A stretch of DNA of 64,000 bases, taken from Candidatus Manganitrophaceae bacterium. Its GTDB lineage: Bacteria; Nitrospirota; Nitrospiria; SBBL01; Manganitrophaceae. This document shows, piece by piece, positions 28,946 to 31,219 of the stretch. A program made the position numbers and the translations under genes. Position 1 is the stretch's first letter; each line of letters opens with the position of its first letter. The stretch is from NCBI GenBank assembly GCA_016200325.1, contig JACQEZ010000016.1, forward strand, positions 62,001 through 126,000, written 5' to 3'. The notes beneath the pieces were generated by a model. The model made no database searches, was not told the DNA's origin, and was given only the letters and a program-made list of their open reading frames with translations.

Positions 28946-28975
28946 TTGACTTCGAAGCGACCTCGGCGCTATAGT
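28946..28975 (+). promoter_or_regulatory. Sigma70-like promoter for hisS
   Basis: TTGACT (28946-28951), 18-base spacer, TATAGT (28970-28975). Transcription should begin near 28982, after the in-frame GTG at 28974, which supports the ATG at 29001. Confidence 0.7.
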
Positions 28976-29000: not shown

Positions 29001-30272
29001 ATGGCCAAATATACGTTACTCAAAGGCTTCAAAGACCTCCTCCCGGAAGAGGCCGAGCGTTGGAAGTGGACCGAATCGATCGCGCATGAAACCTTCTCCG
29101 CCTTCGGCTTCTCGCTGATCCGCACCCCGATCCTCGAAGCGACCGAGCTCTTCACCCGGAGCATCGGCGAAGCGACCGACATCGTCGAAAAAGAGATGTA
29201 TACCTTTCAGGATTGGGACGAAAAAAAGGTGAGCCTTCGGCCGGAAGGGACCGCCCCGACGGTGCGGGCCTATCTGGAACACAACCTCGCGGTCCACTAT
29301 GGCAGCCCGATCAAGCTCTACTATCTCGGCCCGATGTTCCGGCACGAGCGGCCCCAGGCGGGACGGCTCCGACAATTTCATCAGACCGGGGCGGAGGTGA
29401 TCGGCGACCTCGATCCGCGCCAGGATGTCGAGCTCCTCTCACTGTTGACCCACTTCTTCGAGCGGCTTCAGATCGGCGACCTCACGCTTGAGATCAACTC
29501 GCTCGGCTGTCCGGCCTGCCGGCCGGCCTACCGCGCGGCGCTTCAGGCTTACTTCGAGCAGTATCTTCCGGAGCTCTGCGAGGACTGCAACCGGCGATTT
29601 AAGACCAACCCGCTCCGGATCTTGGATTGTAAAAAAGACGGCTGTAAGGAGATTACGCGGAACGCCCCCTCCCCGATCGACCACCTCTGCGCCGAATGCC
29701 GAGACCACTTTAAAGCGGTTCGTGAAGGGTTAGAGCAGCTCCAGATCCCGTATCAGCTTCAGCCGCATCTCGTCCGGGGACTCGACTATTACACGAAGAC
29801 CGCCTTCGAGCTGACGACGAACAAACTGGGGGCGCAGAACGCGGTCGCCGCCGGCGGCCGCTATGACGGCCTCGTCGAAGCGCTCGGCGGTCCCCCGACC
29901 CCGGCGATCGGATTCGCCCTCGGGATGGAGCGGGTGATCCAGCTGATCGATCCGGCGCGAATCCCGGCGGTGCGCCTGCAGCTCTTTATCGCGCCGCTCG
30001 GAAAGCAGGCGGGGCAATTTCTCTTTCCTCTCCTCCTGGCGCTCCGTAAAAAAAAGATCCGGAGCGAAATGGGGAGCGACACCCTCGGCTTGAAGAACCA
30101 GATGAAGCGGGCCGACCGGGCCGGCGCGGCATACGTCCTGATCGTCGGAGAAGATGAAATGGCCCGCGGCAAGGCGATCCTCCGAGACATGTCGACCAAG
30201 GTGCAAGAGGAGATCCCGCTATCGACACTCACCGAAACGATCGTGACAAAGCTTTCCGCCCCCTCTTCCTAA
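29001..30272 (+). CDS. hisS: Histidyl-tRNA synthetase
   Basis: Protein of 423 aa, a class II aminoacyl-tRNA synthetase. Motif 2 is FRHERPQAGRLRQFHQ, motif 3 is GFALGMERV, and the HisA loop is LVRGLDYYTKTAFE. An insertion with several Cys (LGCPACRPAY, CEDCNRR, LDCKKDGCKE, CAEC) is the zinc-binding type seen in many bacterial HisRS. The C-terminal anticodon-binding domain begins near LQLFIAPLG. No ribosome site is seen and the leader is short (about 19 nt). The 3' end overlaps the frame of a lipoprotein gene. Confidence 0.97.
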   Translation: MAKYTLLKGFKDLLPEEAERWKWTESIAHETFSAFGFSLIRTPILEATELFTRSIGEATDIVEKEMYTFQDWDEKKVSLRPEGTAPTVRAYLEHNLAVHYGSPIKLYYLGPMFRHERPQAGRLRQFHQTGAEVIGDLDPRQDVELLSLLTHFFERLQIGDLTLEINSLGCPACRPAYRAALQAYFEQYLPELCEDCNRRFKTNPLRILDCKKDGCKEITRNAPSPIDHLCAECRDHFKAVREGLEQLQIPYQLQPHLVRGLDYYTKTAFELTTNKLGAQNAVAAGGRYDGLVEALGGPPTPAIGFALGMERVIQLIDPARIPAVRLQLFIAPLGKQAGQFLFPLLLALRKKKIRSEMGSDTLGLKNQMKRADRAGAAYVLIVGEDEMARGKAILRDMSTKVQEEIPLSTLTETIVTKLSAPSS

Positions 30273-31219
30273 GCCTCCTTTTCTTCTCCCTCCTCTCCTG
30301 CGGGGGCGGGGGAGGAAGCCCCTCGACCGATCCTCCGAAAACCTATTTTGTCGTCCCCTCTTCGGCCGGCGGCAACGACTCCAATGCCGGCACCGCCGAC
30401 GCGCCGTTCGCCACGATCACACACGCCCTCTCGGTCTCCCAGGCAAGAGATGTCATCCAGGTGGCAGCCGGCACCTACACTCCCGGAAGCGCTACCCACC
30501 TTCCGACCGACCCCGGAGAGACCTTTCCGATTCTTATCAAAGAAGGGGTCTCGGTCGTCGGCGAGCCGTTTCAGACGAATGCCAACGCCCCAGGGACGGT
30601 GATCTTGGGAAGCGGGGTTTACACGAGCCCAACCGCCGGCCCACTTCAGGCGGCGGTCATTCTCGCCGAGGGAGGATCGATCGCCCGGTTGACCATCCGG
30701 AGCCAGGGAGGGGTCGGCCTGATCGCCGAGGGGGTCACCGGATCGATCAGCAATTCTCTTTTCAGCACCAACAAGATCGGCCTCTTCCTCATCGCAAGCC
30801 ATCTGTCCATTTCAAACAGTGCGATCACCGGAAATGAAACCGGCATTCAGTCGACGGCGGGCGATACCAGCGAAATCGACCAGAACGTTCTCTCAAACAA
30901 CACCGCCGGCGCCGCCCTCGGCGTCCGGATCTCCGACGCCGGCCCCGCACTGCGGCAGAACCAAATCACCGGAAACCCCGGCGGCGGCGTGACGGTGGAA
31001 GGCGGCGCTCATCCCGACCTGGGGGGCGGGGGACGGAGCGACGGAAAAAATATCCTGAGCTGCAACGGGGGCGACCTGATCAATCAGACCGACGGGGCGA
31101 TCTTCGCCCGAAACAACCTCTGGGACCACGCTCCACCGACACCGACCGATGCCGTCACCCCCCATGGCGGGACCATCGACACGCTCGGGGCAACCCTCTC
31201 CTCCCCCCGTTGCGGTTAG
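30242..31219 (+). CDS. Beta-helix (DUF1565-like) lipoprotein with no ordinary start codon
   Basis: This frame is clearly coding but contains no ATG, GTG or TTG before 30461. From about 30242 it reads RDKAFRPLFLSLLFFSLLSC, an excellent lipoprotein signal, then GGGGGSPSTDPP and KTYFVVPSSAGGNDSNAGTA, DAPFATITHALSVSQARDVI and QVAAGTYTPGSA, the hallmark of DUF1565 domains. A right-handed parallel beta-helix with repeated NSxITGNxTGI turns follows to a final GATLSSPRCG. The first 31 bases overlap the end of hisS in another frame. Translation may depend on a -1 shift in or near the C5 run at 30259-30263, on a non-standard start, or there may be a sequence error. An outer-membrane lipoprotein is the likely product. 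Confidence 0.75.
   Translation, partial: RDKAFRPLFLSLLFFSLLSCGGGGGSPSTDPPKTYFVVPSSAGGNDSNAGTADAPFATITHALSVSQARDVIQVAAGTYTPGSATHLPTDPGETFPILIKEGVSVVGEPFQTNANAPGTVILGSGVYTSPTAGPLQAAVILAEGGSIARLTIRSQGGVGLIAEGVTGSISNSLFSTNKIGLFLIASHLSISNSAITGNETGIQSTAGDTSEIDQNVLSNNTAGAALGVRISDAGPALRQNQITGNPGGGVTVEGGAHPDLGGGGRSDGKNILSCNGGDLINQTDGAIFARNNLWDHAPPTPTDAVTPHGGTIDTLGATLSSPRCG

Follow-up and report, generated by a model that had tools for sequence, protein, structure and literature searches.

A putative AUC start codon inside hisS for a lipoprotein gene conserved in the Candidatus Manganitrophus lineage

Outside infC, few non-canonical start codons have been characterised in bacteria (PMC5472188). The infC gene starts with AUU in E. 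coli and with ATC in Streptomyces, where non-canonical starts are repressed by IF3, and the GTC start of Streptomyces sigR is IF3-repressed as well (PMC5472188). The locus described here resembles infC in that a conserved AUN codon follows a strong Shine-Dalgarno sequence and there is no canonical start, the codon being ATC in both genes within the genus; it differs in that infC is self-regulating, whereas here the product would be a surface-type lipoprotein and the putative start lies within another gene. With sigR it shares a function outside the translation machinery, a non-canonical start conserved in the genus and the fact of being missed by ordinary start prediction, but the sigR codon is GTC, has been demonstrated experimentally and is not nested in an upstream gene, while the start of the lipoprotein gene is deduced from sequence. 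Another described system, IS1/IS3-type programmed -1 frameshifting (PMC4066793), is similar in that two frames overlap in -1 register and the upstream one contains a Z_ZZN tetramer.

The locus lies in a stretch of 64,000 nucleotides from a Candidatus Manganitrophaceae bacterium, which is referred to here as the window. Its features are the following:

29001..30272, forward strand: hisS, histidyl-tRNA synthetase, 423 aa, stop TAA at 30270-30272; the lipoprotein start region is inside its 3' end.
30207..30212, forward strand: Shine-Dalgarno-like GAGGAG (within AAGAGGAG, from 30205), read in hisS as the codons GAG GAG, Glu403-Glu404.
30221..30223, forward strand: ATC, putative start of the lipoprotein gene; its A closes the hisS codon for Leu407 (CTA) and its TC opens the one for Ser408 (TCG).
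30221..30272, forward strand: overlap of hisS and the lipoprotein gene, -1 register, 52 nt here and 40 nt in five relatives.
30221..30298, forward strand: predicted signal peptide MDTHRNDRDKAFRPLFLSLLFFSLLS, followed by Cys at 30299-30301.
30221..31219, forward strand: lipoprotein gene, 332 aa from ATC, secreted product of DUF1565 / beta-helix type, stop TAG at 31217-31219.
30248..30251, forward strand: A_AAG tetramer, hisS frame; among candidate sites for a -1 slip it alone is conserved, and the Lys codon of the lipoprotein n-region falls in it as well.

The identity of hisS is clear from profile searches with its product (Pfam tRNA-synt_His, E 1.5e-48; HGTP_anticodon, E 1.8e-11), and its orthologues in five genomes of the same genus are 81-82% identical. 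The lipoprotein frame is open from 30158 to its TAG, the preceding in-frame stop being at 30155-30157. A preliminary description of this DNA had reported that no ATG, GTG or TTG precedes position 30461 in this frame, and reading the frame in the window confirms it: the earliest such codon is GTG 30461, within the mature domain. The complete lipoprotein signal and DUF1565 domain that it had proposed are likewise found, in the form of a lipobox Cys and a match to PF07602 (E 1.1e-29, 104 bits vs. a Pfam gathering cut-off of 20.3). The feature that it had placed at 30242-30460 is thus real, while the start at 30242 does not hold, the likely start, 30221, being upstream. A promoter-like site was located upstream of hisS (28946-28975), and a search for a terminator-like site between hisS and the lipoprotein gene gave none, a pattern compatible with co-transcription of both genes.

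The PF07602 domain, covering residues 41-298 of the searched stretch, is shared with other DUF1565 lipoproteins and surface proteins, and right-handed beta-helix profiles also match the product (Beta_helix, E 2.6e-11). With 101 bits vs. a cut-off of 380 bits for the NCBIfam equivalog LIC10774, the protein falls outside the LIC10774 subfamily. A structure model of low confidence (mean pLDDT 58) consists of successive short strands, which are compatible with a beta-helix but no proof of it. Orthologues in the five relatives are 59-64% identical, and pairwise dN/dS of the mature protein over about 300 codons is 0.21-0.28, which indicates purifying selection and a real gene. Translated from ATC, all six genomes give a predicted basic n-region, with conserved R and K, a hydrophobic core and a lipobox, whose pattern fits five genomes directly and the sixth only if Pro is permitted at -2. 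A bacterial lipoprotein signal would hold only if translation starts at or near this ATC.

The genomes compared were that of the window and five others of one genus of manganese-oxidising bacteria, the Candidatus Manganitrophus lineage of the Nitrospirota, an example of the relatives being Ca. Manganitrophus sp. GAC4 (CP114561.1; G004). In all six, hisS is followed by the lipoprotein gene in the same -1 overlapping register, which bears out the earlier observation that the signal sequence overlaps hisS in the -1 frame; its presence in all five same-genus genomes excludes chance. When the hisS 3' end and lipoprotein start region were compared, a check proposed in the preliminary description, the stretch from the upstream in-frame stop to the lipobox Cys proved free of ATG, GTG and TTG in each of the six. 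A scan of GTDB contigs with a single lipoprotein sequence as query gave no match, and one with the alignment as query recovered three records, all of the same genus. These genomes are relatives of one another, so that six exceeds the number of independent observations, and the conserved ATC could represent one inherited event rather than six.

Near-cognate codons (ATC, ATT, ATA, CTG, ACG, AAG and AGG) were listed from the upstream stop to the lipobox Cys. In the frame of the window, ATC 30221-30223 is the sole one, and while the relatives carry several or few of them, only this ATC is common to the six. GAGGAG precedes it with a spacing of 8 nt, and GAG GAG is identical in all six genomes, though their hisS genes elsewhere mix GAA and GAG. 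What is looked for in an AUN start, that is, no usable canonical start together with a conserved AUN codon and a Shine-Dalgarno sequence at ordinary spacing, is therefore found in every genome compared. Counting against a start at this position, GAGGAG doubles as the codons of a conserved Glu-Glu of HisRS. A further point against it is that, according to folding predictions, the AUC is partly paired in the window (unpaired probability 0.17).

A trace of the proposed embedded start can be seen in the codon usage of hisS. The Leu407 codon, which supplies the A of ATC, is CTA in the window and TTA in the five relatives, so that its first base varies between C and T and the A is kept in all six. 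Outside this site, A-ending codons account for just 5 of the 302 Leu codons in the six hisS genes, and among 42 invariant Leu columns Leu407 is the only one that ends in A in every genome. Outgroup hisS genes of the same order and class, in which no such lipoprotein overlaps, have Leu at the equivalent position in eight cases, encoded by CTT, CTC or CTG in seven and by TTA in one (A-ending Leu in genus vs. outgroups, Fisher p 0.005 with relatedness ignored). Reduced synonymous divergence of hisS over the whole overlap was also tested and not seen (0.305 vs. 0.306), which confines the constraint to specific bases.

Taken as a whole, these data make it very likely that the lipoprotein gene is translated independently from AUC 30221-30223, in the -1 frame of hisS. 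Ribosomes would bind GAGGAG on the hisS transcript, and the initiator tRNA would presumably read AUC as Met within the last 17 codons of hisS. The product would begin with MDTHRNDRDKAFRPLFLSLLFFSLLS-C and would then be exported and lipidated at Cys27. Since IF3 destabilises initiation wherever the codon is not AUG, GUG or UUG, expression would be expected to be low and, as with infC, to increase under IF3 shortage.

The preliminary description had listed -1 frameshifting, a rare start codon and a missing base without ranking them. The rare start codon is the option that stands, as an ATC which that description had not named; the missing base falls, and frameshifting becomes much less likely, although it is the alternative that survives best. 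Programmed -1 frameshifting towards the 3' end of hisS, on its A_AAR Lys codon (30248-30251), would yield a HisRS-lipoprotein fusion, and we consider it improbable. A Z_ZZN-type tetramer is indeed present in the hisS frame of all six genomes, as A_AAG in the window and A_AAA in the five relatives, and such tetramers serve IS elements, with A_AAG among the most shift-prone; in E. coli, however, Z_ZZN without a stimulator gives 0.147% vs. a background of 0.112% (PMC4066793). Compared with IS1/IS3-type signals, the locus has no heptamer and no conserved downstream structure, and its signal requires an N-terminal position: no conserved X_XXZ_ZZN was seen in the six genomes, nor a conserved hairpin at a downstream distance of 5-8 nt, where stretches of 40 and 60 nt are essentially unfolded in the relatives, while in the window only, a stem with a 34-nt loop is predicted downstream of A_AAG. 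The Shine-Dalgarno sequence is about 36 nt upstream of the tetramer, and in known stimulated shift signals it is much closer to the slip motif. Some bacterial frameshift signals have no known stimulator, so that the missing stimulator lowers the probability of frameshifting and does no more. Two further points weigh against a fusion: in it, the lipoprotein signal would follow 417 residues of a cytosolic enzyme and the conserved lipobox would serve no purpose, and frameshifting gives no reason to expect that the Leu codon should be kept A-ending. Conservation of the tetramer itself is explained by the AAA Lys codon of the lipoprotein n-region. A separate possibility, that translation begins in the hisS frame at GTG 30242 and then slips, was considered and rejected, since this GTG is missing in the relatives.

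Use of a different non-canonical start codon, or reinitiation after termination close to the hisS stop, appears very unlikely. An ATT immediately precedes ATC in four relatives, and three have CTG or ATT/ATC codons near the hisS stop, but the window offers no near-cognate codon other than ATC, no alternative is common to the six genomes, and a start at the hisS stop would lose the basic n-region.

An assembly error, with a missing or miscalled base and an ordinary start in the true sequence, is less probable still. Indels are common in MAGs, and G004 carries a one-base deletion within the lipoprotein gene; nevertheless, the six genomes, each assembled separately, share both the frame relation and the lack of a canonical start, so that neither a local assembly error nor decay explains the arrangement, and a base inserted ahead of the hisS stop would put hisS and the lipoprotein into one fused frame. 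The latter applies to the run of C at 30259-30263, which does consist of five C, as described earlier, and where a sixth C would join the two frames; a role of this run in the conserved arrangement is not borne out, as it sits in a four-codon extension of hisS that is absent from the relatives and found in this genome only. Decay of the gene, with loss of its start codon, would account for the absence of a canonical start, but given the dN/dS values, the full-length frames in five of six genomes and the retention of the signal peptide, this reading has practically no probability left.

The lipoprotein frame of G004, the one that is not intact, lacks a base in a short homopolymer near codon 40 of a single-contig assembly, and this deletion is likely a sequencing error.

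Initiation at AUC would not be new to this lineage. The apparent start of infC is an ATC preceded by a Shine-Dalgarno sequence in each of the six genomes of the genus, and in five of them no ATG, GTG or TTG is found between the preceding stop and this ATC; in the sixth (G001) the open frame is longer, with no canonical start in the codons displayed. ATC is also present at the infC start site in 18 of 20 other members of the class, these 20 being the ones with a readable infC 5' end (four more were unreadable). The infC genes of G016 and G042 apparently have ATG at this site. The presence of ATC in infC means that ribosomes of the lineage probably initiate at AUC already. On these grounds the lipoprotein gene is likely a second AUC-initiated, IF3-sensitive gene, and probably a new addition to the few bacterial genes with AUN initiation.

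A survey covered 461 kb of the source genome, with 376 genes called by a simple codon-usage score, and in it the lipoprotein gene was the only strong gene without a canonical start but with a near-cognate codon behind a Shine-Dalgarno sequence. Another frame deserves mention in its own right. On the minus strand of G000:C17 (17671-19035, reverse-complement coordinates), a frame that overlaps the end of an upstream frame (MDPISIIVTALATG...) has a strong coding signal from about 60 codons before its first canonical start. A near-cognate codon with a Shine-Dalgarno sequence was sought in this frame and none was found, and the case may be explained by frameshifting, by an error in the sequence or by an unusual start of another kind.

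Regarding the wider meaning of the AUC start, we regard it as somewhat more probable than the contrary that a second gene starting with AUC throughout the genus ties a surface lipoprotein to the level of IF3, with codon choice in hisS constrained by the embedded start. Gene finders limited to ATG, GTG and TTG would miss such a start and drop the signal peptide, and the lipoprotein would then seem cytosolic. A case conserved in a genus, together with a codon trace in the overlapped gene, offers a comparative route to further AUC-started genes, and the start of the lipoprotein gene provides a simple test of IF3 control beyond genes of the translation machinery.

Two additional observations concern other loci. 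In G032 and G028, which belong to another family of the class, a short lipoprotein-like frame (…LLLALTSLTACGSPIE…) of unrelated appearance directly follows hisS. A DUF1565-like region 36% identical to the lipoprotein is encoded at G000:C14:157825-158703, inside a much larger protein with an open frame of 1490 aa that has counterparts in other genomes of the genus.
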